Positions 7,391 through 22,432 of a stretch of DNA of 25,382 nucleotides are shown here, piece by piece. The translations under genes were made by a program, and so were the position numbers. The stretch is from a virus. Under the pieces are notes generated by a model. That model was not told the origin of the DNA. It worked only from the letters and a program-made list of their open reading frames with translations, and searched no databases. Positions within the stretch are counted from its first letter, which is position 1. Each line of letters opens with the position of its first letter. The stretch covers positions 1 through 25,382 of the IMG/VR virus record IMGVR_UViG_3300028581_002068. One strand, 5' to 3'.

Positions 7391-7488
7391 TTGTAGATAA
7401 AAGGATCTCGTTTGCGAAGTTCTTTCAGCTTTTTACGATAACGTATTTCCAAGGTAATTCTATCCCAAAGTCTGCGTAGCCATTTCAT
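7387..7488 (-). CDS. 33-residue basic peptide gene
   Basis: A short ORF starts MKWLRRLWDRI and ends RDPFIYK. It is supported by position and signals: AAGGAG about 5 bases before its ATG, a start overlapping the stop of the upstream gene (ATGA), and a stop overlapping the carbamoyltransferase start (ATGA). The peptide is strongly basic (about 12 Lys/Arg in 33), predicted helical and amphipathic, with Trp3 and Trp8. It has no Cys. I associate short K/R-rich peptides ending in DPFIY with T4-like marine phages, from memory. Possible roles are a membrane- or RNA-binding peptide, a translational coupler, or, much less likely, a substrate of one of the radical SAM enzymes. Confidence 0.8.
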   Translation of the reverse strand: MKWLRRLWDRITLEIRYRKKLKELRKRDPFIYK

Positions 7489-8549
7489 TTTAGTCTCCTT
7501 ATTTGCTGTTCAGCGTAGTCTTGATCGCTCCAGCGATACTCGTATGTAGCTTCGGTATCACTGGTGCGTATTTTATACACATCAAGATAGGCAGCAATTT
7601 GTTGCCAAATTTGATTGTAGTCCAATGTGCCAAATGTTTTAGACAAATTAACTTGTGCTACCTTGGGATGCCCGATTGTCAATGACTTGTCTTCTGGATC
7701 AAAACCGTTGTTGGTCAACCATGTTCGGAATTCAGCAATCTTTTTTATTTGCCAGTGATACGCACCTGGGTCTCGAGCCCATTCAATATCAAAATCTCCA
7801 GCTGCCTCAGTTTGGTTGCGCAGACTGGTGGTTGTTAATTCATCTACATTGCGGCCTTCGTCATTGAACACTTCCCAATGTGCTTTGCTTACCGCTTTGT
7901 TCACACCCACATATACTCCGCCCATTTGACGATTAATTGTGTCTACACCAAACAATTCATAATCTTCTGTATCTAAAGTAAATCTTGGTGCATTGAGCCA
8001 ACACATTAGCTGGCTGGGTCTACGCCACTCAGGGGCCTGAACAACTTTGCGCATGCTCAGTACAAGACTTTCGTATTCATGACACAACAAGTTGAGTTGA
8101 CGTATGTGCCAACGTGTCACAGCATCTGCTTGCTTCCAGTAAGAACTCATGTGTCCTGAATGTCCTTGGAGATCTTCAAAATAGCGATGCAACCAATTCA
8201 TACGCTCATGATCAACATCCAGGTTATCTTGTATGGTCTCTGCTACTGTGAAGTGATCATCGATTGTATAACCCAAATTGGCTGTGTTAATGGCTGTGAT
8301 ACTGGCATTAATTTGATCAATAATGTATTCAGCAGTTCGTTCACTTTCGGTCCAGCCCAACCAACAGTAATTTTTTTCCAAATGCAAGTCATTACGTATG
8401 ATATTGTTCAATGCAGTCAGCCATTTACGACTGAGACTATTGTCTGCTACATCGATGCACAGTGTGAGCGTGTCTACTCCGCGCAGGTCTATTTCAATTC
8501 TATCAAGCAATGTTGTTCCACCATTCCAGCACCGCGGGTCTTTCAGCAA
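7485..8549 (-). CDS. Conserved-looking protein of unknown function, TTG start likely
   Basis: The protein has 354 residues and I do not recognise the family. The frame's most upstream plausible start is a TTG at 8549 with GGAG four bases before it, giving MLKDPRCWNGG and a 47-base overlap with the radical SAM gene, the largest overlap in the string. A second TTG about 13 codons in (LLDRIEIDLRG) is an alternative with no ribosome site. The protein is soluble-looking, Trp/Tyr-rich, with an RTWLTNNGFDP block near the end followed by IGHPKVAQVNL and a charged tail. No nucleotide-binding or metal motif stands out. Co-translation with the carbamoyltransferase through the small ORF suggests a role in the same modification step, which is inference. 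Confidence 0.8.
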   Translation of the reverse strand: MLKDPRCWNGGTTLLDRIEIDLRGVDTLTLCIDVADNSLSRKWLTALNNIIRNDLHLEKNYCWLGWTESERTAEYIIDQINASITAINTANLGYTIDDHFTVAETIQDNLDVDHERMNWLHRYFEDLQGHSGHMSSYWKQADAVTRWHIRQLNLLCHEYESLVLSMRKVVQAPEWRRPSQLMCWLNAPRFTLDTEDYELFGVDTINRQMGGVYVGVNKAVSKAHWEVFNDEGRNVDELTTTSLRNQTEAAGDFDIEWARDPGAYHWQIKKIAEFRTWLTNNGFDPEDKSLTIGHPKVAQVNLSKTFGTLDYNQIWQQIAAYLDVYKIRTSDTEATYEYRWSDQDYAEQQIRRLK

Positions 8550-9780
8550 GTATCTCCGTCATGGTAATCTTCTGTGTGCGTATGCTTTCTAATTGTAACA
8601 CACGATCCCGCCCACTTGCAAGACCTTGCCGGTAAGTATCTGGCCATTGTTCTTCAAATGTAGGGCGTGTTTTTAATTGCACCAACATGTCACGCAAAGC
8701 ACCATCTATTTCAAGTACTAGTTCGTCAATCCACGGGTCTAACAGCGTTCTAGGCAAGGCCAATGGACTCAACACAATGTCTGGTGAGAATGAGAATATC
8801 ACTTTAGCAAGGATGTCGACTCCGTGTGTTTGTGCAAGTTGTCTAATGCGTGTAACTTCGAACATTCCGGGCAGAGTGAGCGTAAAGTCAATTCGTACTT
8901 GACGTCGGTGACGTTGGATCGCAACTGCTTGACCAAAATTGTCAAGCCAGCGACCGTACTCAAGGCCTGTTCTAATGTATTCACCAATTGCGCCTGTGCC
9001 GTCGAGACTTGCACATATCTGCCAATCGCGCAGCCCGCTGAGAATATCGCGATATAAGTTAACACCTCGATAATCCACTCTGGATAGATTTGTATTGTAT
9101 CTAGCATATACCTTCGGCCCATCCCCTAATTCAACTATGCGTTTCATATAACGCCAATGTTGTTCGTACATCAAGGGCTCGCCACCTACCCAGTACACTT
9201 CTTCAACACGATGCTGTTCCACTGCTGCCGCAAACTCGGCTTCTATCTTGCTGTCTTGAAATGCAGAAATTTCTTGCCGCACTTCAGGTTTCATCCAGGC
9301 ATTCTTGGAATTTGACCAGTCAATCATGTTGTGTTGTCGCTGTTCTGTTTCCCAGCTTGAGCTCAGCATGTCACCACATGTTCTACATTTAAAATTGCAC
9401 AAGTTACTAAATCTATAATCCCAACTCACTGGCTGCATTGTGGTGCGGCCTGCGGTGTCTGTGGTCTCCCAGATGTCAGGATACTTATGTTTGAATAGTT
9501 GCCAAAAATATGTGCGGTAAACGTCGGTGTTCAACAGTTTGTTATTGCACACTTCACATTCAGGTAGTGTCTCTCCTGACATCATACGGCTACGCACACT
9601 CATCATGTGTGGTGAGTTCCAATGTTCATCCAGTGTGATAGGAATATACTTGCCAGTGCCCGCGGCTGTGTCTATGTATTGCTCAAAATTCTGCGCAGGC
9701 TCACGGCTTGCACAACACATGCGCCGTTCTGTTTGCGGACTCAAATAGGTATGCACCCAGGGCGCCATGCACAAGCTCAT
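8503..9780 (-). CDS. Radical SAM enzyme with extra N-terminal Cys cluster (A)
   Basis: The ATG at 9780 overlaps the epimerase stop by four bases, and I prefer it to an in-frame TTG at 9798; this gives 425 residues. The SAM [4Fe-4S] motif is CNFKCRTC (Cys128, Cys132, Cys135), and the SAM-binding GGEP follows in VYWVGGEPLM. Ahead of the barrel, Cys4 (LCMAPW), Cys22/Cys23 (RMCC), Cys75 and Cys78 (CEVC) look like ligands of an auxiliary cluster, a twitch/SPASM-like arrangement placed N-terminally. The motif GEYIRTGLEYGRWL is shared with the other radical SAM proteins here. The reaction is unknown: such families include peptide maturases and sugar- or alcohol-dehydrogenating enzymes. A link to glycan modification comes from context only. 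Confidence 0.9.
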   Translation of the reverse strand: MSLCMAPWVHTYLSPQTERRMCCASREPAQNFEQYIDTAAGTGKYIPITLDEHWNSPHMMSVRSRMMSGETLPECEVCNNKLLNTDVYRTYFWQLFKHKYPDIWETTDTAGRTTMQPVSWDYRFSNLCNFKCRTCGDMLSSSWETEQRQHNMIDWSNSKNAWMKPEVRQEISAFQDSKIEAEFAAAVEQHRVEEVYWVGGEPLMYEQHWRYMKRIVELGDGPKVYARYNTNLSRVDYRGVNLYRDILSGLRDWQICASLDGTGAIGEYIRTGLEYGRWLDNFGQAVAIQRHRRQVRIDFTLTLPGMFEVTRIRQLAQTHGVDILAKVIFSFSPDIVLSPLALPRTLLDPWIDELVLEIDGALRDMLVQLKTRPTFEEQWPDTYRQGLASGRDRVLQLESIRTQKITMTEILAERPAVLEWWNNIA

Positions 9781-10724
9781 AGTTGTGATTCGATCCAACG
9801 ATAAGTTTTTTCCAACCCTGATTCTAAGTTGTCTGGTGGTGCCCAGTCAAGCACTTGACGAATAAGAGTATTGTCGCTAGTACGTCCCATTACTCCCACA
9901 GGTCCGGGTACGTTCACGATGTCTACATTTTTACCGGCTATGTCCGTAATCAGACGCACTAGGTTATTGAGTGTGATTATTCTGTTAGATCCTATGTTGA
10001 TAGGTTGCGAGTAATCACTAGCCATTAGTCTTTGTATGCCTTCTATGCAGTCATCTATGTAGGTGAAACTGCGTGTTTGTGTGCCTGGCCCCCAGACTTC
10101 TACTGTGCCCGAACTTTCAGCCACTTTGCGACACAAGGCAGCAGGTGCTTTTTCTCTGCCACCGCACCAGGTACCTTCAGGACCAAACACATTGTGCAGT
10201 CTAGCTATGCGCACATCTATACCGTAGTTTCTGGCAAATGCCAGATATAGTCGTTCGCTGAACAACTTTTCCCAACCATATTCACTGTCGGGATAAGCAG
10301 GATATGCACTGGCTTCTGTCATAATGGGTGTGTTAGGATCAAGTTGATTGTGTGCAGGATACATACAAGCACTGCTGCTGTAAAAGATCTTGGGCGTCTT
10401 TTTGAATGTGATCTCATGCAAGATGTTCAAATTGATCAAAGCACTGTTGTGCATGATGTCTGCGTCATTGTTTCCTACAAACACAAATCCTGCGCCGCCC
10501 ATGTCAGCAGCCAGTTGATATATCTCATCCATGTCTTGCGTGATTAATTTGGTAACCTGCCGTTGGTTGCGCAGGTCAACTTGATGAAACTCATCTGCTG
10601 CAGTGGGACCAAACTCTGGCAGTTTGAGATCAGCTCCCACAACATAGTTCCCTTGTGCTTTCAAACTACGCACAAGATGACTTCCTATAAATCCACCGGC
10701 TCCGCATACCAATATTTTTTTCAT
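9777..10724 (-). CDS. GDP-mannose 3,5-epimerase-like SDR enzyme
   Basis: The protein has 315 residues, an extended short-chain dehydrogenase. NAD is bound by GAGGFIG (8-14). The family-specific blocks are LAADMGGAGF (71-80), YSSSACMYP (115-123) and GPEGTWCGGREKAPAA (181-196). Cys120, Tyr149, Lys153 and Lys192 line up with Arabidopsis GME Cys145, Tyr174, Lys178 and Lys217 at one constant offset of 25, so both the redox pair and the epimerising acid/base pair are present. The known reaction converts GDP-D-mannose to GDP-L-galactose (and GDP-L-gulose). The plant enzyme is longer at both ends. It overlaps its neighbours by four bases on each side. It probably supplies an activated L-sugar to the glycosyltransferases encoded nearby. 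A related GDP- or dTDP-sugar epimerase is the alternative. Confidence 0.9.
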   Translation of the reverse strand: MKKILVCGAGGFIGSHLVRSLKAQGNYVVGADLKLPEFGPTAADEFHQVDLRNQRQVTKLITQDMDEIYQLAADMGGAGFVFVGNNDADIMHNSALINLNILHEITFKKTPKIFYSSSACMYPAHNQLDPNTPIMTEASAYPAYPDSEYGWEKLFSERLYLAFARNYGIDVRIARLHNVFGPEGTWCGGREKAPAALCRKVAESSGTVEVWGPGTQTRSFTYIDDCIEGIQRLMASDYSQPINIGSNRIITLNNLVRLITDIAGKNVDIVNVPGPVGVMGRTSDNTLIRQVLDWAPPDNLESGLEKTYRWIESQL

Positions 10725-11329
10725 AATGTCTTTTTTATTTCTTCTATGTAATAATCAGCCACCTGTTGGTGTATCTGTCGGTCAGTGATGTGATAGTATG
10801 GTCGATACTCTCTAGTGACCGTATAGTCCCACAAATTAATACTGCTTCGCCAGTGGTTAAATTTTGCAAAATAATTAGTTGCCATCGGATGAAAGTTTGC
10901 ATGTTCAAACCCGCCTTGTGAAAAACAAAACGGTATACCAGTGTCGACTAGTTTTTGCAAAGTGTGTTCAACAGTGATTGTATTTTGATAAATTGCTAAA
11001 TTGATATCAAAAAATTCAGTGTAGTAGTCCTTTAGTATTTGCAGTTGTGATTTTGAAAAAGGTGTGGTTTGTGTGCTGGCAGTGTGGTAGCTAAACGGAA
11101 CATACTTGCCGTTGTGTAATTTTTCACTTCTGGTCACAGACGTAAATTGTACAATTACAAAGTCTGCACTGGCCGCAATGGCCCGATCTACTTGTTGAGC
11201 TATTAACAAATTGGTGGCAGCTATCTGACAAAGATTGCCGGTTGGAAATTGGTTGGCAACAATGTCTGCCCAGCAGTTTCCATACTCAGCATCGCTTACG
11301 CCAAAACTGTCCCCACAGATGTATATCAA
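10721..11329 (-). CDS. SGNH/GDSL-hydrolase-like protein, TTG start
   Basis: The protein has 202 residues. The opening IYICGDSFG places a nucleophile-like Ser8 in a GDS block, and the end has H180-IT-D183-RQI-H187, the usual Asp-x-x-x-His arrangement of SGNH hydrolases. The oxyanion Gly and Asn blocks between them are less clear (GN at 31-32 is a candidate). Such enzymes remove or transfer O-acyl groups on carbohydrates, which would fit a glycan cluster. The start codon is TTG: GAGGAG lies about 8 bases upstream and the TTGA overlaps the previous stop. Overlap with the epimerase gene is four bases. The family call is moderate because the sequence between the catalytic blocks is divergent. Confidence 0.75.
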   Translation of the reverse strand: MIYICGDSFGVSDAEYGNCWADIVANQFPTGNLCQIAATNLLIAQQVDRAIAASADFVIVQFTSVTRSEKLHNGKYVPFSYHTASTQTTPFSKSQLQILKDYYTEFFDINLAIYQNTITVEHTLQKLVDTGIPFCFSQGGFEHANFHPMATNYFAKFNHWRSSINLWDYTVTREYRPYYHITDRQIHQQVADYYIEEIKKTL

Positions 11330-12303
11330 TTCAAAAACTCCTCAATGTCATTTATGATTTCTTTAGCAAACTTTTTTTTAACGTATTCTAGATCAAAAAA
11401 TCTTGCATTGTTGTGCGCAAGTTTTTGTTGAGTCAGTTGGTCCCAGCCAGATGATTGACGATTGTGAGTATGAACTACGTCTCGAACCAGATCAAACACT
11501 GCTAGTTGCCGAGCTTGGTCTGATGGCACAACGTCATATGATTCACTCCACAGGTTTTCAAAAGTTTCAAATCCTTGTGCATGCAAAAATTTCAATGTAT
11601 TTACACTGCCGCACACAATCATGGGATGCCAATAGGCCAAGGGTTTGTAACTTTTTTCAGATATTTCAGTTTGATAACTTTTGCCTCCAGGGCTAGCAAA
11701 ATACCAATCACTGCGCATGTAACTTTCAACCACCAGACTCCAACAAGTGCTGTTGTACCATTGCGGATTCATGTAAAATTCCCAAAACACAGGTGTGGCT
11801 CGTTCTTGGTCATCTTGTATGAACCGACCACGGTCGACATAGCTCCACCGAGCATGAGCCAGTTGTGGTGCAAGGTCAGCGGCCACAGCGTCTCTGTGAT
11901 CTCTAACTTTGTTCATCAGGCATAGAAAATCATGGGTATAGTCAATTTTTGGTTTATACTGACTATACCCATTGTGATCTGCCAACAAGGCTGTGTGATA
12001 CCACACCCAATTTTTACATCTGAGATCCAATTTGTTGTTGTGCAATAGAAAACTACCACACTCAACATCGCTATCCCATAAATGATTGATCACAATTGAA
12101 TGTCCAGCGTCTTCCAGGGGCTTGTACCAAGGATCTGCTAAAAAATCTTGTTGAAATGTACTTACTACAAAATCGGTACGATCATATGAAACAGCGGGAT
12201 CAAACTCAACCATGTCATAATGCAGCTCTACCAACGGGCGAATAACACCGTCGTTGAAATTCACATAGTCGGCATCGCGATAAATCAGTTTACGTTTTGA
12301 CAT
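11326..12303 (-). CDS. Putative glycosyltransferase with GT10/exostosin-like C-terminus (paralogue 3)
   Basis: The protein has 325 residues, the shortest of the five family members. The signature is SLVVESY (189-195), ISEKSYKPL (214-222) and GFETFENLWSESYD (244-257). A middle block FLCLMNKVRDHRD (126-138) aligns with FLFLNGRLRPHRK of paralogue 4, an N-x-x-R-x-HR pattern that may mark the donor or acceptor site. The first 100 residues are unrelated to the other members at sight. No transmembrane segment. The start overlaps the end of radical SAM gene B by 14 bases. Glycosyltransferase activity is inferred. Confidence 0.72.
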   Translation of the reverse strand: MSKRKLIYRDADYVNFNDGVIRPLVELHYDMVEFDPAVSYDRTDFVVSTFQQDFLADPWYKPLEDAGHSIVINHLWDSDVECGSFLLHNNKLDLRCKNWVWYHTALLADHNGYSQYKPKIDYTHDFLCLMNKVRDHRDAVAADLAPQLAHARWSYVDRGRFIQDDQERATPVFWEFYMNPQWYNSTCWSLVVESYMRSDWYFASPGGKSYQTEISEKSYKPLAYWHPMIVCGSVNTLKFLHAQGFETFENLWSESYDVVPSDQARQLAVFDLVRDVVHTHNRQSSGWDQLTQQKLAHNNARFFDLEYVKKKFAKEIINDIEEFLN

Positions 12304-13504
12304 AGTTTATCAGAGCAGCTAGTTCAGGTTCAACATCTTGTAAGTTTTGATTGCGTTTGCGATCCAAGTCTGCAATTTTCATACGCAACATGAATCCATC
12401 AGTTGAAGCACCAGTATTCATAAAGTCCGCAATGCGATCAAACTCCTCGCGGTATTCAGGTGGCACATCTGCGTTCAGCAGATGTTGTGTTATGCCTGCC
12501 TTGGCTGTGTCAGGCAGTGTAGCAATACTAAAGTACCAAGCATCATGCATCATGTTCCAGTACACAAAGTCAAATCGTTGACATGCTATCCAGTGCGCCA
12601 ACTCATCAATATAACGAACATTGAACACATTTACTGTACTACAACACTGTAACTGCAAATTGAGAATTTGAGTTTTTAAATATTGAAATCTTGTGATGTT
12701 GTCCAATACCATGGCCCAGTCTGCATTGGTTCGTTGATATTCAAAACGAGCACCTATGTCATCAATGCTGAATGCAATTTCAACTGTTTTGAAATGCCGC
12801 CAAATGCCTTCGCCACGTTGGGGATATTGCGTACCATTGGTGTTGTAGTGTATTTCAACCTGATGTGCGATGCCACGGTCAATGATACCTTGCAACATGT
12901 CAAAATGCTGGTCAATCATGAACGGCTCGCCGCCAGTGAATTCAATGTAACGAATGTCTGTCAACACACTATCAATCTGTTGCCAGAACTGCTGATTCTC
13001 TCTGGGCCATGCTCCAGCACGTAGCATTTGATATGCATAAGTTTGTTTTTTGTCATGATCGGGGTGTAGATCATTCAGCTCTTCTGTGGCAAACTGACTT
13101 GAACTCCACGATCCACATATACGACATTTCAAGTTGCAGATGTTGCCCAGTTTCAAATCTAAAAACATCAAGGGTTTGGCATCTGCTGTCCACTCTGTGT
13201 CCGTAATTGAATGCTTGAGTCTGTCTAGCGTGTGCATGCGTTTGCTGGTGCGGCCACCGCGTTCTTCATTCCAACATTTGCGACACGTTTGTGGACGTTC
13301 ACCAGCAAGAAACTGCTCACGTAAACCACGCATGTGATTGCTATTTTGTATGTCAGCAAAGTTGGCAGTGCTTAATTCAAATTTGTTGCCGTTGTCATCT
13401 AATATTTCATCGTCAGCAAGACAACAAGGACGCACTGTGCCGATAGGGCTTGCTTCGATACTAACCCAAGGTAGTACGCAGAATTTATCGTGTGGTATGT
13501 TCAT
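12290..13504 (-). CDS. Radical SAM enzyme with extra N-terminal Cys cluster (B)
   Basis: The protein has 404 residues. The radical SAM motif is CNLKCRIC (Cys123, Cys127, Cys130), with FTGGEPFM as the SAM-binding block. The N-terminal cysteine set is Cys9 (FCVLPWV), Cys27/Cys28 (RPCC), Cys74 and Cys77 (CRKC), matching proteins A and C. FEYQRTNADWAMVL corresponds to the EYIRxG motif of the others but lacks the glycine. It overlaps gene C by four bases (ATGA). Its substrate is unknown; nothing in the sequence points to one beyond its neighbours. Confidence 0.9.
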   Translation of the reverse strand: MNIPHDKFCVLPWVSIEASPIGTVRPCCLADDEILDDNGNKFELSTANFADIQNSNHMRGLREQFLAGERPQTCRKCWNEERGGRTSKRMHTLDRLKHSITDTEWTADAKPLMFLDLKLGNICNLKCRICGSWSSSQFATEELNDLHPDHDKKQTYAYQMLRAGAWPRENQQFWQQIDSVLTDIRYIEFTGGEPFMIDQHFDMLQGIIDRGIAHQVEIHYNTNGTQYPQRGEGIWRHFKTVEIAFSIDDIGARFEYQRTNADWAMVLDNITRFQYLKTQILNLQLQCCSTVNVFNVRYIDELAHWIACQRFDFVYWNMMHDAWYFSIATLPDTAKAGITQHLLNADVPPEYREEFDRIADFMNTGASTDGFMLRMKIADLDRKRNQNLQDVEPELAALINYVKT

Positions 13505-14763
13505 TGCAATACTGCCAATTCTGGGATCACTGTGAGTATATTGTCTTTTCTAATGTCATCTAACTCGTATGTTTTGCGCCAGAACGTGTCTAGCAAATGT
13601 GTATTGTCCGTGGCCATCATAAACTTGACAGCACTTTCAAATCCCACTGTGGCTCGTTGCAATGGATCCTGATGTTTTAGCCAGTTGATATGATCAGTAA
13701 ACTTTGTTAGCAATTGTTTTTTGTATTCCGCGGGCGCGATATCTATTCTGTAGTGCGCAGGATCTTGTAATATGTTTACATTCAAATCTTGCGCACGAAT
13801 CAACCCACGTTCCGTCCAATCACGATGAAAGTCTGTTAGATGCCATGCATTCATAATACTGAGTGTGGGCGAGATATAAAAATCAACTTCAGGACATATC
13901 TGCAGCATGTCTCTGCGATTTTGTTCTACCACAGCCCAGTCTGTGCCTTTGCGAATGTACTCACCTCGTGCGCCTGAGTCGTCTAGACTTGCGCCTACTG
14001 CCACATTGTCAAACTGCCGCCAATATTCAAACACACTTCGGCCTCGGAGTTCAGTGTGAGTGAAGTTGGTGTTGTAAATCAATCGCACATCAAAGCGTTT
14101 TCTCCGGACCAACTCCGCTAGGATGTTATAGTGTTCTTCCATCAACAAGGGCTCGCCGCCAGCAAAGTAAATCTGTTCCACATAGTTCAAGTGTGGTTCT
14201 AGTTGTTCCCACATGTCTGTTTCAGTGCGCCCTGCATAGTTCAACACCGAGTTCTGCTCTTTCCAATCACCACCTGCTAACTTGGCTTGATCTTGATACC
14301 ACTGACTGCTGAATATGTGTCCGCAACTGCGGCATTTCAAATTGCATAAATTACTAAAACGAATATCCCAGTAAGTAATTTCAAAAGGATTCTCGTCTAA
14401 CTTCTTAATCTGGTGCCCGTGATGCTTGTTTGCACTCTTACGCCCACTAAAGAATCCATTGGCTTCTTGTTCATAACAACGACCACAGGCAGCATTAGGT
14501 GTTTCGGTCAACATGTCCTGGCGCAGTTGTTGCATGGGTGTGTCAGTCCATATTTGTTCCAAGGTATTTTTGCGGCAATTGCCCACCGGTCCTACAGACA
14601 TTTCAGCATGACAGCAAGGATATGCTTCACCTGTGGGGTAGGCATGCAGGTGTATCCAGGGATATATGCAGAATGTTTTTGAGTCTGTTAGTAAAAACTG
14701 CTCACGTTCAGTTAACTCTGTTGGCCGTACCAAATCAGTGCTGTTATACTTGTATTGAGTCAT
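13501..14763 (-). CDS. Radical SAM enzyme with extra N-terminal Cys cluster (C)
   Basis: The protein has 420 residues. The radical SAM motif is CNLKCRSC (Cys140, Cys144, Cys147) followed by FAGGEPLLM. Cys32 (FCIYPWIHLH), Cys50/Cys51 (YPCC), Cys93 and Cys96 (CGRC) form the putative auxiliary cluster set. It has about 23 more N-terminal residues than protein B. GARGEYIRKGTDW is the shared motif after the barrel centre. The PTGEAYPCC stretch resembles the PIGTVRPCC of B, showing common ancestry, but the C-terminal thirds of A, B and C are quite different, which suggests different substrates. Start ATG overlaps the end of gene D by 20 bases. Confidence 0.9.
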   Translation of the reverse strand: MTQYKYNSTDLVRPTELTEREQFLLTDSKTFCIYPWIHLHAYPTGEAYPCCHAEMSVGPVGNCRKNTLEQIWTDTPMQQLRQDMLTETPNAACGRCYEQEANGFFSGRKSANKHHGHQIKKLDENPFEITYWDIRFSNLCNLKCRSCGHIFSSQWYQDQAKLAGGDWKEQNSVLNYAGRTETDMWEQLEPHLNYVEQIYFAGGEPLLMEEHYNILAELVRRKRFDVRLIYNTNFTHTELRGRSVFEYWRQFDNVAVGASLDDSGARGEYIRKGTDWAVVEQNRRDMLQICPEVDFYISPTLSIMNAWHLTDFHRDWTERGLIRAQDLNVNILQDPAHYRIDIAPAEYKKQLLTKFTDHINWLKHQDPLQRATVGFESAVKFMMATDNTHLLDTFWRKTYELDDIRKDNILTVIPELAVLQ

Positions 14764-16090
14764 ACCATTCTTCTAGGTTAGGAAACGCTTTAGCAAAGAC
14801 TTTGTCCCTGCGTTGATCATACTGTGTGTAAAACTGTTTAAAGTCGTTTAACAGTTTTGGCATTTCAAATGCTTCTGAGTGTGGAGTTTTAACAACGTCC
14901 AAATAATCAATTAGCCGTAGCACATGATTTACTTCGTGTTCGTGCAAGCAAGGATTATCTTGATTGTGAAACAACCATGCTTCCAACTGCAAGCGATAAC
15001 CAGTACGTATGTTGTCTGGCAGCACTAATGCACTTTGGAAACTGGGAAAGCGCAAGATGTTCAATGTAAAGTTCAGTTGATCTCGACCATAACGTTGTTT
15101 CAATGTCAACATCATGTCAAGGTGACTCACAAGACTGTCCAAGCACAAGGCATTGATGGTACACATCACATGCACTGCACTGACAAATCTTCCTTCCAAC
15201 AAAAACAACACATTGTTGAGCCATTGGTTGTAGTCAAGGCCATCTCTAATATACTCTGCTTGCGCAAATGTGGCTTCCATTGAGGTATACAAATCCACCT
15301 TGGGCAATGGGGCAACGGCCACAGCAAAGTCTTTGATCTTGCTCATCTCAATGCCAAGATTTGAATTGATAGCCAACCGGGTCGTACTTCGTCCTTGATT
15401 GGTCTTGAACCATTCTATCAGTTTCCAAGTGTAACCCGACATCAAAGGTTCACCGCCGGTTATTCGCAGTTCTTGCAAGGTGCGGTGGAGGTCCGATTCC
15501 CACCAGTCGAAGAAGGCTTCCACGTACGGATTAGTCTCACCGAATTTATAAAGTTGACTACTATCATGAGTGTGAGTAAAATGGTTCCTACCATCGCTAA
15601 CCAATCCGACGTAGGGCCCATGTTTCCGGATGTCATTGACCCAAGTGGAACTAAAAGCAGGATTGCAATAAGAACAAGCAAATTGACAAGTGCGATCAAA
15701 ACTAATTTCGAGAGTTTTAAGATTGATGTCTTTGTGGTAGTTGTCACCGTAGTATGCATCGTTGATGTCCTTTATTTCATATATCTTTGATTTGTACACA
15801 CGGTCACTCACAGCGTTGGTGTCCATGTCTTCAATTTTCCAGCAGTACTCACAGCCAGCAGGACGTTTGCCCAGCACCATTTCTCGACGATCTGCTTTCT
15901 TTTGATCAGTATTGTGCAACAGCCTAGAGTTGTTAGAGACTTTATCAATGTCAATCAAATGAGCTGGCGGGTGATGGCAACTTGTGGTCTGCCCACTTCC
16001 TAACCAAATGGTAGCATTGTACCACTTCGCTGCACAAAAACTTGGGGATAACGGGTCTAGGACCTGTTGTTTAAATTCTAAATCATTCAT
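14744..16090 (-). CDS. Radical SAM enzyme, second subfamily (D)
   Basis: The frame is open upstream, but those codons lie inside the preceding gene and do not look conserved. The ATG at 16090 (MNDLEFKQQV) gives an 8-base overlap and a protein of 448 residues beginning like protein E. The radical SAM motif is CQFACSYC (Cys135, Cys139, Cys142) and ITGGEPLM follows. The N-terminal set differs from A-C: Cys19 (FCAAKW), Cys38 (SCHHPPAH), Cys80 and Cys83 (CEYC). The block RLLHNTDQKK is nearly shared with E. QAEYIRDGLDY is the common motif. It lies directly after a putative glycosyltransferase gene, as does E. No substrate is known. Confidence 0.9.
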   Translation of the reverse strand: MNDLEFKQQVLDPLSPSFCAAKWYNATIWLGSGQTTSCHHPPAHLIDIDKVSNNSRLLHNTDQKKADRREMVLGKRPAGCEYCWKIEDMDTNAVSDRVYKSKIYEIKDINDAYYGDNYHKDINLKTLEISFDRTCQFACSYCNPAFSSTWVNDIRKHGPYVGLVSDGRNHFTHTHDSSQLYKFGETNPYVEAFFDWWESDLHRTLQELRITGGEPLMSGYTWKLIEWFKTNQGRSTTRLAINSNLGIEMSKIKDFAVAVAPLPKVDLYTSMEATFAQAEYIRDGLDYNQWLNNVLFLLEGRFVSAVHVMCTINALCLDSLVSHLDMMLTLKQRYGRDQLNFTLNILRFPSFQSALVLPDNIRTGYRLQLEAWLFHNQDNPCLHEHEVNHVLRLIDYLDVVKTPHSEAFEMPKLLNDFKQFYTQYDQRRDKVFAKAFPNLEEWYDSIQV

Positions 16091-17186
16091 TGATGTATTG
16101 GGCCAAACGTTCTGGAAGCTCTGCACGTTCACGAGCATTGTGTTCGCGAAGTTGTTGATAGTTGTATTTACAAACGGATCTAGCGGCTTCCAAGAAACTG
16201 GCAGCACCATTGTAACATATATCTGCTACAACGTCAACTATTCTGTTGGCACGATCTCGAGGATCATCTATTAGATCAAATGTTTCATCAATCAGGTGCC
16301 CAAATGTTTGGAATCCTGCTGAGTGTAAATCCTTGTAGTATCCGCGGTTGGCTGCTGCCACAAATGGATGACACATGATCATGGGCTTCCAGATCTTTTC
16401 TGTGCGAAATGTGTACGGATAGTCGTAAATGGTTTCGGTGACCACACTGAAGTATGTGTCAATGTATGGTGCAGGATTGACTTCTGCATCGCCCCAGGTG
16501 TTGCCAAACAAGTAATGTTTTACAAATCCCCCGGGCACTGTGCTCATATTGGGCAATGCACGATCAATTTCATATTGTTTAGGCAATAATCGTATGGGTT
16601 CAGAATCGCCAATTTGTAATTGACTGCTCCAGGCCATTTCCACACGATCATTGAGATTGGTCCACAGTGCTCGATCCAGCAGTTTGCGATTGCGCATGGC
16701 ATCTATTAGGTACTTGCGATGTGGTCGTAACCGCCCGTTCAAAAACAAAAAGTCATAAGGCTTGTTGACTTTGTGATACAGTTGTGGATAAGACTCATGA
16801 GCACGTAAATTTTCCAGGTACTCTACAATGTTGGAGAAGTAGCAGTCTGTTTTGCAGTAACGCCATCCTGGCTCCATGTTGCCTGAGGTCAACAATAAAA
16901 TCTCACCTTGTCGTACTTGTTCTTTGATGCGCAACCGTGTGAGTTGCAACAGTATGGTTTCGCTGCCTTCTGCAGGATTGGAAAATACAATACGGCCAGG
17001 ATAATGCCTTGCCCATTCTGTGATTTCTGTAAAGTGATTTTTTAATGTCACACGCCCAACAATATACACATTGTTGGGATCAAGTACAATGTCAGTCCAC
17101 TGCCAGAAGCTGCCATCTGCATGTGTCTTGAGCAAATCCCATACCTCAGCCCATTCATCTACAATGATCTTACGATTGCCTAGCAT
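16083..17186 (-). CDS. Putative glycosyltransferase with GT10/exostosin-like C-terminus (paralogue 4)
   Basis: I choose the ATG at 17186 (MLGNRKII) over an in-frame GTG at 17195, because the strong GGGAGGAG ends only one base before the GTG but about 10 bases before the ATG. This gives 367 residues. Signature blocks are VVTET (248-252), RTEKIWKPM (261-269) and GFQTFGHLIDETFD (291-304). The central FLFLNGRLRPHRK block is the clearest version of the N-x-R-x-x-HR pattern of the family. The N-terminal domain has IVLDPNNVYIVGR, compatible with a Rossmann-like fold. It overlaps the previous gene by 17 bases and the following radical SAM gene D by 8, forming a two-gene unit repeated upstream as paralogue 5 plus gene E. 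Confidence 0.75.
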   Translation of the reverse strand: MLGNRKIIVDEWAEVWDLLKTHADGSFWQWTDIVLDPNNVYIVGRVTLKNHFTEITEWARHYPGRIVFSNPAEGSETILLQLTRLRIKEQVRQGEILLLTSGNMEPGWRYCKTDCYFSNIVEYLENLRAHESYPQLYHKVNKPYDFLFLNGRLRPHRKYLIDAMRNRKLLDRALWTNLNDRVEMAWSSQLQIGDSEPIRLLPKQYEIDRALPNMSTVPGGFVKHYLFGNTWGDAEVNPAPYIDTYFSVVTETIYDYPYTFRTEKIWKPMIMCHPFVAAANRGYYKDLHSAGFQTFGHLIDETFDLIDDPRDRANRIVDVVADICYNGAASFLEAARSVCKYNYQQLREHNARERAELPERLAQYINE

Positions 17187-18549
17187 GGTATGCACACTCC
17201 TCCCACCAGCTTCGCATCTCAGGAAATGTCTTCAAAAAGTCTGTGCCGCGTCTGCGGTCATGTTCGCTGAAGAAACGATAGAAGTCTGCTTTTGCACGAC
17301 TGTGATCTGTTAACTGTGCAGACCGCATCCAGGCAATGTCGCGATCCAGCCTATGCAATTCGTAATCTTTGAATCCTTTGAACGGTTCTTCTTCTGTTTC
17401 AATTTGACGTATCATCCATGCCCATAACAACTCCAGTCGTTCAACATAACTTTCTGGCAAGATTTGTAGGCTTTGCCAAGCAGGCTCACGCAACACAGGT
17501 GTATCAAACCACACACGTTGATAGTCCACACTGTATACCTTGCGTAGGCCTAGTATGCCAGCAAACAGTTGGTCTAAACTGGTCACACTTAAATTGTTCA
17601 TTGTGATGATAAATGTAAGACTTGAGTAGTTGGGCACTTGTGTGAGGAATTGATTCACTCGATCCCACAGCAGATCAAAGTCCAGGCCATTGCGCATGTA
17701 TTCCGCTTGCTCGCCCCAGCCATCCAGGCTCACATATTGCATGAAGTGTTCAATGCGACCATCACATATGGCCTTGACATAGGTCAAATACTTTTGCCAT
17801 GACTTCTCATCCACTGAGAAGTTGCTTGTGACATTCAAATGTAGTCGGGGACTGGGGTTGGTCAACACATAATCAAACACACGATATGTGTTCTTGTCCA
17901 GCAACGGTTCGCCACCAGTCATTCGGAAATGTTCTAAGTGAGGGTACAGGTCTGGCCACCAGGCCCAGAAGGCGTCAACATAAGGATTTGATTCTCTGGT
18001 TGGTATTGGCCTACGCTGACCCATAAAATGATCAGGAGAGTTGTGTGGACTGCTAGTAGGATAAGCACCCAGTCGTGCAACCTCATCTGCCCATGAGCTC
18101 GAAAACTGAGGGCTACAATAACTACACCTAAGATTACAAGCGTGATTAAAATTAACTTCAACATAACTGGGGATAACATTTTCCTCTCCTGTACTATTTT
18201 TTATTGATTCAAAATCCACCGCGGCCCAAGATTCACCTGAACGGTAGTGTCGATCACTGATCTTGCCCTGATCTTCCATGTTCCAGCAGTACTGACATTC
18301 ACTAGGTTTCACTTCTGCCAACATCATCCGACGTTGTTGTTTTTTATAATCAGTGTTGTGCAATGCTGACACATCTATTGCAATTTCTGCAGGATTGATT
18401 GGGTGCAATGGTGGATGATAGCATGAGTTGTTCATGCCTGTAGTCAAATGTAAACTGACCTGTTTCCACTTTGCTAAACATAATGCAGGACCTAATTGTT
18501 CTTGCATGTTTTCTGCGCTGCGCAACCAATGACTTTTGTTATTTTGCAT
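17170..18549 (-). CDS. Radical SAM enzyme, second subfamily (E)
   Basis: The protein has 459 residues. The radical SAM motif is CNLRCSYC (Cys138, Cys142, Cys145) and MTGGEPLL follows. The N-terminal cysteines are Cys24 (LCLAKW), Cys43 (SCYHPPLHPI), Cys85 and Cys88 (CQYC). Similarity to D runs the length of the protein: ALHNTDYKKQ, SNPYVDAFWAWW, QAEYMRNGLDFD and a C-terminal RRRGTDFLKTFPEMRSWW that parallels RRDKVFAKAFPNLEEWY. The HPP(L/A)H block between the first two cysteines is specific to D and E. It overlaps the upstream glycosyltransferase-like gene by 11 bases. The substrate is unknown. Confidence 0.9.
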   Translation of the reverse strand: MQNNKSHWLRSAENMQEQLGPALCLAKWKQVSLHLTTGMNNSCYHPPLHPINPAEIAIDVSALHNTDYKKQQRRMMLAEVKPSECQYCWNMEDQGKISDRHYRSGESWAAVDFESIKNSTGEENVIPSYVEVNFNHACNLRCSYCSPQFSSSWADEVARLGAYPTSSPHNSPDHFMGQRRPIPTRESNPYVDAFWAWWPDLYPHLEHFRMTGGEPLLDKNTYRVFDYVLTNPSPRLHLNVTSNFSVDEKSWQKYLTYVKAICDGRIEHFMQYVSLDGWGEQAEYMRNGLDFDLLWDRVNQFLTQVPNYSSLTFIITMNNLSVTSLDQLFAGILGLRKVYSVDYQRVWFDTPVLREPAWQSLQILPESYVERLELLWAWMIRQIETEEEPFKGFKDYELHRLDRDIAWMRSAQLTDHSRAKADFYRFFSEHDRRRGTDFLKTFPEMRSWWEECAYHARQS

Positions 18550-19600
18550 TGGAATACTTTGCGTTCATGAGATTTTGCCAGTTGCCCATATTTCTAGCTA
18601 ATTTTTTTAACAACAGCACATTCTTATGATTGTGCTCAATGTCTTGCCGACACTTGTCGTGAATAGAATGAATTTGATTGGTTCTAATTAGAGTATGCAA
18701 AATATCAAACACATGATTTACTCTGTGTATTCCAGAATCATTGTCGTAATCGGTTCCAAAAACATTTTTAAAGAATTTTATCCCTGTAAAATTTTGTGCA
18801 AAGTCTTCGTAATATTTACGATTCCACTTTGTTGCTAGTTCTAAAAAATGTCCAGCAAGCAATTCAGGATCTGATAATTTTTGTACTGCTTGTTTGCTTG
18901 CCACAAGCATGAATGGGCGACCATACTGCATTGGCCTAAGTATTTTTTCAGACACAGTAATAACGTCGTCTGCTGTTGATGTTTCAAACACTAATTCAAG
19001 TGCAATTTGTTTGTACACCTCTGCCCAACCTTGCGTTTTGTGTTTTCCAATAATTTGTTCATCAACTTGACCGATATCGCTGTAAGGAGCCAACTTTATG
19101 AGTTCGCTGTACCTACTGTCAGACTCGCACAGATATTTCAACAATGCGTTTGTATCAATATGTTTTTTTACATTGTGATGAAAACTACTAAGACCTTGAT
19201 CACGGAAATCAAATGTTTGATGGCGTGACACTGCCTGAAGTCTTTCTGCTGTGGCCCGACCTAAAAACATTCCATAACTTTTGGATCCGTCCCAGGGAGT
19301 GTGTCTAGGATGTGTTTTATCTAAAGATAAACAAGGAATAGATATTGGTTCTATTGTGTATTTACTGGAAACTTCAAAAATGTTGTTTGATGCTATCACT
19401 ATGTCCTTTGGGTTCCAGTTCCAAAAATTGCACAGTGTGTCGAGAAACTCACTCAACCCTGAATGTTTGAGTGATCGAGATTCTGGTGAAATCAAAATTA
19501 CTTTTCCATGTTTTTGCATGCTGTAAATTATTTTTGATGATAATTCAGCTTGATAAAATATTTCATTGTCCCCCCAGTGCTTTGTAATATCAACTTGCAT
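18539..19600 (-). CDS. Putative glycosyltransferase with GT10/exostosin-like C-terminus (paralogue 5, divergent)
   Basis: The ATG at 19600 (MQVDITKHWG) overlaps the aminotransferase gene by 11 bases and gives 353 residues; further upstream codons lie inside that gene and were left out. The C-terminal signature is reduced: LVFETS (203-208) and VSEKILRPMQYGRPFML (216-232) are there, but the 'GFxTFxxLxDExYD' loop is replaced by a longer, unrelated segment. It is therefore the most divergent family member. The FLGRATAERL block (112-121) resembles the R-rich centre of the others. Its DNA is visibly more AT-rich than most of the window, and lysines are frequent, which suggests a separate origin. 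Confidence 0.65.
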   Translation of the reverse strand: MQVDITKHWGDNEIFYQAELSSKIIYSMQKHGKVILISPESRSLKHSGLSEFLDTLCNFWNWNPKDIVIASNNIFEVSSKYTIEPISIPCLSLDKTHPRHTPWDGSKSYGMFLGRATAERLQAVSRHQTFDFRDQGLSSFHHNVKKHIDTNALLKYLCESDSRYSELIKLAPYSDIGQVDEQIIGKHKTQGWAEVYKQIALELVFETSTADDVITVSEKILRPMQYGRPFMLVASKQAVQKLSDPELLAGHFLELATKWNRKYYEDFAQNFTGIKFFKNVFGTDYDNDSGIHRVNHVFDILHTLIRTNQIHSIHDKCRQDIEHNHKNVLLLKKLARNMGNWQNLMNAKYSNAK

Positions 19601-20279
19601 TTGTAAAAAATGGATGATTAGATAAATTGGGGTAAAAATCTTTGCCTCGACGGTCCGGCCAGTCTTGGGGTCGTGCATCCATTAACAAAATGCCACGAGC
19701 TGCGTCTTCGGGAGTCATATACATGTGCCAGCCCTGAGAATCAATGCTGTCATTGGCATAAGTGGTTGATTGATTTCGGCCATCATATCTGGCTTTTTGC
19801 AACCAGGAAACAGCATCAATGTCATCCGTCAAAATGATCCCCCCACGTCCAATAGGTATGGCTTTTTTGGCCTGAAAACTCACAACGTGAAATCCGCCTT
19901 GATACATGTTTTGACGCCATTGAGGGGCTGCATCCCAAATTGGATAAGGATCAAGTTGATAACATCCAGTCCAGTCCATATCAACTAAATTCACTTGACA
20001 ACCAGCATGAATTATTTGCATGGCAACACTTACATAGGTATGAGCTGGAATATTGATAGTTCCTTTTGCTTTGAGATATTTTAAACATAAAAATATGCCA
20101 TGACTGCAACAATCAACTGCCACTGCATAACGCGACCCTGCATAGACTGCAACCTTGTGTTCAAAAATTTTTACTGTATCAAAAGGATCATCAAAACTGT
20201 ATCCTGCTGCCTCAAGTTGAGCAAGTTCAGGTCTTTGCAGGTGTTCAGGTATGACACCCAATGGCCATTCATGATACAT
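19590..20279 (-). CDS. Short DegT/DnrJ/EryC1/StrS-family aminotransferase
   Basis: The protein has 229 residues, against about 360-400 for the family, which makes PLP-dependent aminotransfer to keto sugars. The N-terminal PLP fold is recognisable: SRYAVAVDCCSHG (49-61), IPAHTYVSVAMQI (77-89), the cofactor-ring acid in IWDAAPQW (Asp116), and the Schiff-base lysine in SFQAKKAIPIGRGG (Lys139 expected). It ends after MTPEDAARGILL, near where the C-terminal domain would begin. No second frame continues it, so the shortening looks genuine, not a recent frameshift. AAGGGA lies six bases before the ATG. Overlaps with both neighbours are 11 bases. It may be a compact phage version or need a partner. 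It sits next to a PglD-like acyltransferase, which classically acts on its amino-sugar product. Confidence 0.85.
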   Translation of the reverse strand: MYHEWPLGVIPEHLQRPELAQLEAAGYSFDDPFDTVKIFEHKVAVYAGSRYAVAVDCCSHGIFLCLKYLKAKGTINIPAHTYVSVAMQIIHAGCQVNLVDMDWTGCYQLDPYPIWDAAPQWRQNMYQGGFHVVSFQAKKAIPIGRGGIILTDDIDAVSWLQKARYDGRNQSTTYANDSIDSQGWHMYMTPEDAARGILLMDARPQDWPDRRGKDFYPNLSNHPFFTNAS

Positions 20280-20898
20280 TTTTTTCCCTTATATCGCCAA
20301 TTCTACGTGCTGGAGTCCCTACATATACACCAGATTTCTCGATATCTTTAGTGATTGTACTACATGCTCCAACTTCGATATTATCACATAATTCAAGTCC
20401 ATTGAGCACTGCCGATTTGAAATTAAAAGTTGCGTTGTTGCCTACCTTAGTTTTGCCAGCAATCATTGTGCCTGAGTGTAGATGTACGTTATCACCAAGC
20501 TCAACATAGTGTGAAATCAAACAATACGATTCTATCATGCAATGTCGACCAATTTTACTGTGCGGCAATATTGAGTTAAATGGGCCAATAACAGTGCCTT
20601 TACCTATTACAGTAGTTAGATCTTTGGTATAGCAAACCACTGTATCATGCACATAAGTTATACAATCAAGTTGATTTGCATTGATATAATCAATTACTTT
20701 TAATCTCAACTTTAGGTCTAGGTTGAAAGCAACACCATATTGATATTGTGCATGATCAATTATGTGAAAGAATTCATCAGGATTTATCACTATGATCTCA
20801 CCGTGAAATTCTTGACTGAAAAAGTGTTTGGCTTCTAATACCAACGTACTTATTTCGTAGCCAATAAGACAGATGGGTTTTTGATTTGCAACAAGCAT
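20269..20898 (-). CDS. PglD/NeuD-like sugar O/N-acyltransferase, left-handed beta-helix
   Basis: The protein has 209 residues, the typical PglD/NeuD length. The first ~70 residues are a Rossmann-like domain (PICLIGYEIST). From about 95 on, hexapeptide repeats form a beta-helix: VIGKGTVIG, SKIGRHCMIES, ISHYVELGDNVHLHSG with the expected catalytic His, TKVGNNATF and IEVGACSTI, closing with the family ending GVYVGTPARRIG. Such enzymes acetylate UDP-4-amino-sugars or sialic acids using acetyl-CoA. A strong AAGGAG lies six bases before the ATG, and only three bases separate it from the upstream gene. The usual N-terminal glycine-rich loop (GAGG) is altered to GYE, so UDP-sugar binding may differ. 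The partner aminotransferase lies directly downstream. Confidence 0.88.
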   Translation of the reverse strand: MLVANQKPICLIGYEISTLVLEAKHFFSQEFHGEIIVINPDEFFHIIDHAQYQYGVAFNLDLKLRLKVIDYINANQLDCITYVHDTVVCYTKDLTTVIGKGTVIGPFNSILPHSKIGRHCMIESYCLISHYVELGDNVHLHSGTMIAGKTKVGNNATFNFKSAVLNGLELCDNIEVGACSTITKDIEKSGVYVGTPARRIGDIREKNVS

Positions 20899-20901
20899 TT
20901 T

Positions 20902-21504: not shown

Positions 21505-21505
21505 T

Positions 21506-22432
21506 TTACCATCCTTCTTGCTGTCTAATAACATCAATCTCTCTGGTCATAATGTCACGATTGTGCCAGTTTGAACGATAATGTTGTTTGAAGAATCGAC
21601 TTTGTTCGCCTTCGAATATGGCCATGGGCAAGTCCAATTGACCGTGCAATTCATCTGCCACACGTCCACCCAACAGCCTTGGTTCGGAATCTTTTACCGT
21701 TTCCCAAATTTCAGCCAAGGCAGCAAAATCTTGCACTTCGCGGTGATCCCAGTTTGTGAGCATGGTCATGTAAGTGCCCTGTCTAGCACCAGCCATGGCC
21801 CATTGCCCATTGTTGACGTCTGCACCAATGTTGTGCCATATGGTCAAATGATCCAGGTTGCGCTTGTGTACCTGTTGTTGGAATTCTTCCACCGTGGGCT
21901 TTGCCCCTTTGTTCAAACACATTTTTACACCTTCGCGGAATCCAGCACGCCATGCTTGAAAAGGGGAACCATTGGGGTACGTGGTTGAGTAGCAGTTGTA
22001 CATGGCCCAATACAAAGGGTCAAAACAAAACTCCACTTCAGTCTCCACACGCCCGTCTGTGGCTTCGTGTGTGCGCATGTTCATTATAAATTCACGTGTC
22101 CACGAACTCAACCCACCATTGCCATACATCAGGCCATTGATGTGATTGCGGGCACGCCAACGAAACACGGCCTGTTCCCAATCGGGTGTGGCAAATGTCA
22201 ATGTTTGGTTAAAGAAGGCAGCATCGGGAATGTTGTCCCCGTCAATCAGTATAAAGCGTTCGGTGGTGCTGGCAGCAGCCGCTGCCTTGTGGGCGGCATC
22301 TGAGCCTTTGATGCCATCTACTCGCGTGGCCCATGGCACCATGTTCTTGATCTGTACCCAAAACTCTTCTTTTTCGGGCTCGTCGTAACTCAAGTATACA
22401 CAGTCCAAGTCTGCAATGTCAATTTGATTCAT
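21506..22432 (-). CDS. Putative GT-A-fold glycosyltransferase with DGD motif
   Basis: I choose the ATG at 22432 ([10 protein letters not shown]), giving 308 residues and a 14-base overlap with the chimeric gene; a GGAG lies 11 bases upstream. The N-terminus [14 protein letters not shown], the basic and Ala-rich [10 protein letters not shown] helix and the [10 protein letters not shown] block (Asp64-Gly-Asp66) are what one expects of a GT-A enzyme that binds a metal-nucleotide sugar through DxD. The middle has a YGNGGLSSW turn, and the C-terminal half is rich in Trp/His with a long helical end. Proteins with this opening occur in T4-like marine phages, as I recall. Donor and acceptor cannot be read. 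Confidence 0.72.

Follow-up and report, generated by a model that had tools for sequence, protein, structure and literature searches.

The window analysed here, a stretch of 25,382 nucleotides from a single virus record (IMG/VR record IMGVR_UViG_3300028581_002068, positions 1-25,382), carries a gene island in which five distinct radical S-adenosylmethionine (rSAM) enzymes of the N_Twi_rSAM family are encoded together with glycosyltransferase-like (GT) proteins of a family here called TEK-KP, and the rSAM genes recur in the same order in viral relatives. Radical enzymes are oxygen-sensitive and costly, and to our knowledge it is unusual for a phage to encode more than a couple of them. We tentatively interpret these genes as a phage glycan-assembly and radical-tailoring island, with a probability that we place somewhat short of even and with both substrate and product predicted. 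The island makes the chemistry of an uncharacterised rSAM family testable from one operon, and it hints at a so far undescribed chemistry of the phage surface or of the envelope.

Between about 5.1 and 24.7 kb, the window holds an almost gapless run of minus-strand genes, which overlap apart from two gaps, one of 94 bp (at 7.4 kb) and one of 3 bp (at 20.9 kb). In this count every gene begins at the first possible start codon, so that genes somewhat shorter than called, or nested in others, are possible. The rSAM genes, named by orthologue group (R0 to R4), stand within this run in the following operon order:

17170..18549, minus strand: N_Twi_rSAM, group R3 (NF033640, 316.6 bits)
16083..17195, minus strand: TEK-KP GT-like protein, group G0, between R3 and R1 (GT-B fold by analogy with the modelled family member, 1532-2695)
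14744..16090, minus strand: N_Twi_rSAM, group R1 (NF033640, 279 bits; reading frame open to 16210, so that the start may be further upstream)
13501..14763, minus strand: N_Twi_rSAM, group R2 (NF033640, 384.7 bits; SPASM PF13186, 41.2 bits at residues 32-97, cut-off 21.5)
12290..13504, minus strand: N_Twi_rSAM, group R0 (NF033640, 331.5 bits; PF13186, 24.1 bits)
11326..12303, minus strand: TEK-KP GT-like protein, group G2 (grouped in one family with the other TEK-KP proteins)
10721..11329, minus strand: SGNH/GDSL-like protein, named by eye from a motif (cluster 21, in 6 loci; weak PHROG matches without function)
9777..10724, minus strand: NAD-dependent sugar epimerase/dehydratase (PF01370, 146 bits)
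8503..9780, minus strand: N_Twi_rSAM, group R4 (NF033640, 263.5 bits)

An earlier note on this DNA had assigned a CX3CX2C motif, a GGEP motif and cysteines placed before the barrel to five genes, and all five are open reading frames (ORFs) on the minus strand, at the positions given there and with these motifs present. The span of 11326-18549 under which they had been described contains four of them and leaves 8503-9780 outside, and the described alternation of rSAM and GT genes stands in part: GT genes interrupt the series twice, but R1, R2 and R0 are contiguous. The observation that there is no obvious precursor peptide holds, in that no precursor-sized gap was found from 7485 to 24724, where called genes overlap or lie at most 3 bp apart, a precursor nested in another gene or encoded elsewhere being possible. 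With no room in the operon for a separate precursor gene, an interpretation as a pathway for ribosomally synthesised and post-translationally modified peptides was lowered.

The identification of the five enzymes rests on the specific model NF033640 (N_Twi_rSAM, 'twitch domain-containing radical SAM', curated cut-off 170 bits), because the generic Pfam model Radical_SAM scores below its cut-off for four of them and is not listed for 14744-16090. All five pass the NF033640 cut-off with 263.5-384.7 bits and cover nearly the whole model, and two of the five additionally pass the cut-off for the SPASM domain (PF13186) in their N-terminal part. The CX3CX2C motif, the GGEP motif and the N-terminal cysteine set occur in every one, with the cysteines preceding the barrel throughout; in 13501-14763 they are C32/C50/C51/C93/C96, followed by C140/C144/C147. 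The extra N-terminal cysteines of the earlier note correspond to a conserved set of four. In an alignment of 442 rSAM proteins from 82 loci (7 of 449 were dropped as shorter than 330 amino acids, aa), conservation is at least 99.8% for the three cysteines of the SAM cluster and 95.5-98.9% for the four N-terminal positions, while all seven occur together in 417 of the 442 and in all five window proteins; the N-terminal spacing in the five main groups is C-X18-C-X40..51-C-X2-C. Two further rSAM paralogue groups in or near the island (groups 5 and 7) have the full seven-cysteine set in 0 of 13 and 0 of 4 members, respectively, and may have lost the auxiliary cluster, or the alignment columns may be off. 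A structural model was made for group R2 from an alignment of 12 close relatives only; its barrel part resembles rSAM enzymes, with DesII, BlsE and anSME tied at Z 9.3-9.5. BtrN was absent from the 10 solved chains found by a search with the rSAM profile.

The five GT-like proteins of the window, encoded on the minus strand from 11326, 16083 and 18539 and on the plus strand from 1532 and about 2679, belong to one family, which has 231 matches among the ORFs of the 82 loci (13 of the 231 were dropped from the alignment by length, and L063:5146-6195, which matched both family profiles, was counted as a GT by its score of 187 versus 44 bits). Searches of Pfam, NCBIfam and PHROG assigned none of the five window proteins to a family, whether by curated cut-off or at E 0.01. 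Two Pfam matches below threshold, at E 0.04 and 0.09, are probably due to chance, and profile A2 of the family found nothing significant among solved structures. When three of the five were queried against 50,697 phage records, two were unmatched at E 1e-3 and the third at 1e-5, and the nearest viral matches of the family are mostly uncharacterised proteins of uncultured phages. The model of 1532-2695, built from an 80-sequence alignment, is confident (predicted local distance difference test, pLDDT, 88.3), and the protein as modelled is a two-domain GT-B fold, which bears out the earlier description of the family as glycosyltransferase-like. Structural alignment with VIA-align placed BGT, the DNA beta-glucosyltransferase of T4, nearest (1c3j, Z 11.6, 266 residues aligned, root-mean-square deviation 4.3), followed by a fucosyltransferase (10.8), the corresponding T4 alpha-glucosyltransferase AGT (10.4) and POGLUT (10.1), and nearly all of the 50 rows listed are, by title, glycosyltransferases or glycogen/trehalose-type synthases, which we take to be GT-B enzymes; the Foldseek matches of the same model were weak (best E 3e-3). 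The modelled fold gives neither donor nor acceptor, and sugar transfer is predicted.

A scan of viral contigs returned at least 560 confirmed relatives, from which the best 80 loci were kept (R2 identity 69-90%), a set biased toward close relatives. At least two rSAMs are present in all 80, at least five in 77, and at least one TEK-KP GT in 79. The rSAM tree comprises five orthologue groups with 75-86 members each, two of the five group nodes having low support (0.48 and 0.65). Counting the window together with its 80 relatives, the rSAM order is identical in 72 of 81 loci, with all five groups likewise complete in 72, and it is this recurrence that places the island far beyond chance. After removal of loci with R2 more than 95% identical, 57 non-redundant loci remained, and all five groups are present in 52 of these, in every one ordered R3-R1-R2-R0-R4; GT group G0 lies between R3 and R1 in 52 of the 57. 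The five rSAMs are under strong purifying selection, with ratios of nonsynonymous to synonymous substitution rates (dN/dS) of 0.04-0.12 in comparisons with the relatives L007 and L009; L048 is more distant, and the dS measured against it is saturated for four of the five.

Further genes of the window are listed below from the low-coordinate end, with cluster numbers referring to protein clusters across the relatives. The three genes at 1.5-4.9 kb lie on the plus strand, opposite to the main run.

1532..2695, plus strand: TEK-KP GT-like protein, group G4, the modelled member with a GT-B fold (pLDDT as above)
2679..3866, plus strand: TEK-KP GT-like protein, group G1 (reading frame open from 2550; start inferred)
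3850..4878, plus strand: amidinotransferase-family protein (profile A9 search of solved structures)
5106..5891, minus strand: FkbM-type methyltransferase (PF05050)
5888..7390, minus strand: carbamoyltransferase (PF02543 and PF16861; present in 71 of 80 relatives)
7485..8549, minus strand: conserved protein beside R4, cluster 3 (present in 74 of 80 relatives; no significant relative in the PDB)
18539..19678, minus strand: TEK-KP GT-like protein, group G3 (grouped in one family with the other TEK-KP proteins)
19590..20279, minus strand: DegT/DnrJ/EryC1 aminotransferase-like protein, short (PF01041, 60.7 bits, in two stretches)
20269..20898, minus strand: hexapeptide-repeat acyltransferase-like protein (PF00132)
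21506..22474, minus strand: conserved ILIDGDN-motif protein, GT-A-like by motif only (cluster 2, alignment A8; no significant match in the PDB)
22419..22883, minus strand: cytidylyltransferase-like protein, near a heptose-1-phosphate adenylyltransferase PHROG (PF01467, phrog_7878)
22868..24476, minus strand: two paralogous conserved proteins (22868-23638 and 23625-24476), GT-A-like by eye only (cluster 5)
24779..25381, minus strand: last part of a gene for a putative virion protein, fibre or structural, that lies upstream of the island (cluster 7)

The island is thus bordered on one side by the cluster 3 protein and the carbamoyltransferase, and on the other by the ILIDGDN protein, the cytidylyltransferase-like protein, the two cluster-5 paralogues and putative fibre genes. 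Cluster 2, the ILIDGDN type, is present in at most 77 of the 80 loci, an upper bound, as single linkage merged the 21506-22474 type with the 1-1533 type in this cluster; alignment A8 covers the first type only, and the mixed profile was used for the counts in bacteria, extra-copy regions and divergent loci and for the near/far test reported below. The putative fibre genes (clusters 7 and 10) were found in 51 of 80 loci, a count limited by the 10 kb flank. Cluster 7 itself has no PHROG match, and the fibre assignment comes from the outermost gene of one relative, the upstream neighbour L007:32-2047, which matches PHROGs for a virion structural protein (E 1e-10) and a tail fibre (E 4e-4). The amidinotransferase assignment draws on profile A9, which matches L-arginine:glycine amidinotransferase at E 4e-24 and, at E 1e-16, inosamine-phosphate amidinotransferase; as a single sequence, 3850..4878 had no Pfam match at E 0.01. 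Solved-structure searches with profiles A6, A7 and A8 (clusters 3, 5 and 2, respectively) gave nothing significant, and phrog_1903, which has no function assigned, is matched by 22868-23638, the first of the two paralogues. The DegT-like protein has 229 aa against a 360-position profile and is shortened or possibly degenerate. At the opposite end of the window, the minus-strand gene at 1-1533, truncated by the window end, encodes six FGNQ- or WGNQ-bearing repeats about 66 residues apart; it had no match in the phage collection at E 1e-5 and one sub-threshold Pfam match only.

The island was also located in 20 large viral records of 139-364 kb. Five of these (G001, G005, G010, G017 and G020) have the same scores and probably represent a single virus, so that the 20 carriers are not independent. 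A T4-type Gp23 capsid protein scores over its cut-off in 14 of the 20. Each carrier has 7-19 N_Twi matches at E 0.001, a threshold that also catches ordinary rSAMs in 14 control genomes, where none passes the NF033640 cut-off; among the matches listed, at least five pass that cut-off in every carrier (20/20). TEK-KP GT matches number 3-14 per record. The rSAM family is also spread singly through core regions of these phages: 20 regions with extra rSAM copies were chosen, one of which (L110) is the island edge, and in the other 19 a TEK-KP GT was present in two (L117 and L126). A scan of ten large neighbours in such regions, each at most two or three genes away from an rSAM, identified a terminase large subunit, three virion proteins (one matching phrog_1645 and two phrog_13484), SSB, an SbcC-like protein, a helicase and another rSAM, with nothing informative for two. 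In four regions (L113, L120, L124 and L127) an N_Twi-like rSAM lies two genes from a gene of 528-529 aa, which in L120, the only one of the four scanned, is a T4-type terminase large subunit.

With R0, R2 and R4 as queries against the 50,697 phage records, R2 or R4 matched two and R0 matched three, namely Vibrio phages K566 and K567 and a short marine single-cell record. K566 has four N_Twi-like rSAMs, as judged by profile and cysteines, in alternation with glycosyltransferase genes, of which two are GT8 genes that pass the Pfam cut-off and one encodes a GT4-like protein that falls below it; the island GT was not found in it by profile, and K566 is a distant lineage with different glycosyltransferases. 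An LpxC-like gene (L006:24993-26259, PF03331, 140 bits) and an annotated PagP also lie near the rSAM-GT8 region of this phage. A second viral scan anchored on a K566 protein gave 80 divergent loci at 21-28% identity, at least three of them on contigs of the first set. At least two rSAMs occur in 78 of these 80, and a TEK-KP GT in 38, within three genes of an rSAM in 35. In one of these loci (L139, IMGVR_UViG_3300028557_000015) ten N_Twi-like rSAM genes are consecutive, making up 11 of 15 ORFs in 17 kb. By a score criterion, 44 divergent loci are island-like and 36 are not. Around the rSAMs of the 36 non-cassette loci, island-type genes make up 54 of 262 neighbours within three genes versus 7 of 121 at a distance of at least five (p 1.4e-4, in a test that ignores kinship among the 36 loci). 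A Pfam control on the unlabelled neighbours used 140 near and 89 far proteins, cut from 152 and 97 by removing near-duplicates and, in the far set, also frame-ragged ends; with the first 25 of 54 near and of 41 far families counted, QueC-like proteins appeared 13 times near and were not in the far list, and an Asp/Arg hydroxylase appeared 10 times near and 5 times far.

Bacterial genomes contain the enzymes as well, with at least 21 loci found by a genome scan, and in the locus DNA of these 21 no TEK-KP GT was detected by profile. N_Twi genes pass the cut-off in all 12 whole bacterial genomes examined, and the most rSAM matches (13 and 18) occur in two metagenome-assembled genomes (MAGs) titled Bdellovibrionia and Bdellovibrionales. 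A TEK-KP GT is present in 2 of the 12 genomes, which are these two most rSAM-rich Bdellovibrionota; one of three GTs lies inside the big rSAM array in one genome and the only GT does so in the other, placements to which a simple chance estimate gives about 3% and 1%. The ILIDGDN family is likewise confined to the same two of the 12 genomes; one genome has two copies, one of them within the array, and in the other genome the family lies outside the array. A carbamoyltransferase gene stands at the edge of one bacterial array; but such a gene is found somewhere in 8 of the 12 genomes. The arrays of these Bdellovibrionia and Bdellovibrionales MAGs (L208-L211) also include, by eye, PP-loop (QueC-like) enzymes and a protein of 505-507 aa that resembles a different kind of rSAM.

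Nucleotide-sugar-type genes (epimerase and cytidylyltransferase-like), a GT-B family, five distinct N_Twi rSAMs and transferases of the carbamoyl, amidino, methyl and acyl types are co-located in the island, and it is because of this gene company, K566 and the two large bacterial arrays that we favour glycan chemistry. In the proposed sequence of events, the glycosyltransferases would assemble an oligosaccharide, and each of the five rSAMs would generate a 5'-deoxyadenosyl radical at its CX3CX2C cluster, the predicted N-terminal auxiliary cluster, fully ligated by cysteines, serving as electron acceptor as in the aminocyclitol dehydrogenase BtrN. By analogy, the likeness of the four cysteines to the BtrN twitch suggests two-electron oxidation of sugar-like substrates, and the five conserved rSAM groups suggest five different steps, in which the enzymes would oxidise, epimerise or deoxygenate different sugar positions. 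The carbamoyl-, amidino-, methyl- and acyltransferases would then cap the glycan. The fibre neighbourhood suggests the virion as the target, and the finished glycan would most likely sit on the fibres of the virion, where it would alter adsorption or conceal the particle. In a broader form, which we regard as rather doubtful, the genes would represent an undescribed radical glycan biosynthesis common to large phages of the T4 type, marine vibriophages (with other GTs) and Bdellovibrionota, in which arrays of distinct N-terminal-twitch rSAMs act in sequence on a glycan built by the new GT-B family and yield an aminocyclitol-like, amidinated and carbamoylated surface sugar.

Several results weigh against glycan tailoring as the function of these enzymes. 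In six of the 12 bacterial genomes, N_Twi clusters have Pfam GT1/GT2 genes nearby about as often as expected (4 of 23 clusters against 3.95). Around the rSAMs of the 36 non-cassette viral loci, the TEK-KP GT by itself shows no enrichment (6/262 near versus 1/121 far, p 0.44), and no clear one is seen for sugar Pfam families among the unlabelled neighbours of the Pfam control (8 of the 140 near proteins and 3 of the 89 far ones). The extra rSAM copies of the carriers stand no more than two genes away from terminase, SSB, helicase and SbcC-like genes. The R2 model has a mean pLDDT of 65, with most of the cysteine region below 50, and in its fold matches the sulfatase- or peptide-modifying enzymes anSME, SkfB and SuiB differ by at most about 1 Z from the sugar enzymes. 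A universal rSAM-GT pairing was rejected as a rule of the family on the missing GT1/GT2 enrichment in bacteria and on the extra phage copies beside core genes. The companionship of the two gene types put forward in the earlier note thus stands for the island, for K566 with its other GTs and for the two Bdellovibrionota arrays, and not as a rule; constant pairing with TEK-KP proteins fails, since homologues without this GT are common: of the divergent viral loci 38 of 80 have it, and of the bacterial genomes 2 of 12.

A serious rival is that the rSAMs modify proteins directly, by epimerisation, thioether or carbon-carbon links or side-chain oxidation in virion proteins, with the GTs acting on the same proteins. 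It has to be taken seriously because SPASM domains occur in peptide-modifying enzymes and many family members have no nearby GT; the SPASM matches over cut-off in two of the five window proteins, the bacterial clusters without GT1/GT2 enrichment, the fold matches to anSME, SkfB and SuiB and the position of some extra rSAM copies near terminase and virion-protein genes all agree with it. Other extra copies, however, adjoin SSB and helicase genes rather than virion genes, the operon lacks a precursor-sized gap, and the recognisable partner enzymes in the island are mostly of sugar type, and on balance we consider protein modification unlikely. The same glycan machinery could instead be directed at the host envelope, rewriting lipopolysaccharide or capsule against superinfection or for release. 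The nucleotidyltransferase close to a heptose adenylyltransferase PHROG would fit such a target, and surface alteration against co-infection is what the authors of PMC7029224 propose, in its passages on the host-recognition cluster of pelagimyophages, for the GTs encoded there. However, a Pfam search of the 27 window ORFs found no flippase, ligase or O-antigen polymerase family, and a putative fibre gene adjoins the island, so that an envelope target also seems improbable to us. Hypermodification of DNA, in which the GT-B enzymes and rSAMs would decorate phage bases and so escape restriction, could draw on the T4 enzymes BGT (Z 11.6) and AGT (Z 10.4) among the nearest folds of the GT model and on the T4-type Gp23 capsid in 14 of 20 carriers. 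Yet the fucosyltransferase and POGLUT score only 0.8 and 1.5 Z lower, which leaves the acceptor undecided by fold; Pfam found no family of base-hydroxymethylating enzymes among the 27 ORFs, and the epimerase, the amidinotransferase and the fibre neighbourhood would be unexpected, which makes this explanation very improbable. Finally, the island might make a small diffusible product in the infected cell, a radical-modified oligosaccharide resembling an aminoglycoside, as the tool set of the island (four-cysteine twitch rSAMs, amidinotransferase, carbamoyltransferase, DegT-like protein and GTs) presumably recalls aminocyclitol antibiotic pathways. We give it only the slightest chance: families of cyclitol synthases, exporters or resistance proteins were absent from the results of the same Pfam search, the DegT-like protein is of reduced length, and the genes adjoin a putative virion gene.

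Phage islands for glycan or surface modification are already known, and the rSAM family has a name. The suggestion in the earlier note of an undescribed system applies to the island, of which no description was found in the open-access literature (most subscription papers and bioRxiv preprints being outside this scope), and not to the enzymes, which belong to a named NCBIfam family. All five window rSAMs exceed the curated cut-off of NF033640, but the title of that model carries no function, whereas here the enzymes fall into five ordered orthologue groups accompanied by GTs. The modelled TEK-KP protein shares its fold with T4 BGT and AGT and with the alpha-1,3-fucosyltransferase, a match that we take to be GT10 (Z 10.4-11.6); it differs from them in its 6-10% identity, a Foldseek E of 3e-3 and the lack of a Pfam match over cut-off. 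The K566/K567 region is similar in that four N_Twi-like rSAMs are interleaved with glycosyltransferases, but these are of the GT8 and GT4-like families, the rSAM identity is 19-24%, and the island GT was not found there by profile. Among the relatives, the named Vibrio phage K566 may be obtainable for experimental work. Pelagimyophages, in the passages of PMC7029224 on their host-recognition region, are likewise large myophages with GTs beside tail fibres and radical-SAM cassettes; in contrast to the island, that region is called hypervariable and no conserved order of five rSAMs is described in those passages, which give the freshwater genomes as being without radical SAM proteins. GTs are also reported from another large-phage lineage in PMC12619734, in whose main text the word 'radical' is absent. 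According to the review PMC9012708, PqqE and SuiB are examples of peptide-modifying enzymes with SPASM domains, the twitch domain is a C-terminal extension with one auxiliary cluster, and in BtrN, which oxidises an aminocyclitol, this cluster is ligated by four cysteines. The window rSAMs share the four conserved cysteines with BtrN, but their set stands before the barrel, whereas the classical domain of the BtrN and PqqE type is described there as a C-terminal extension; by this comparison, the island enzymes would bear a domain of the twitch kind at the opposite end of the protein.

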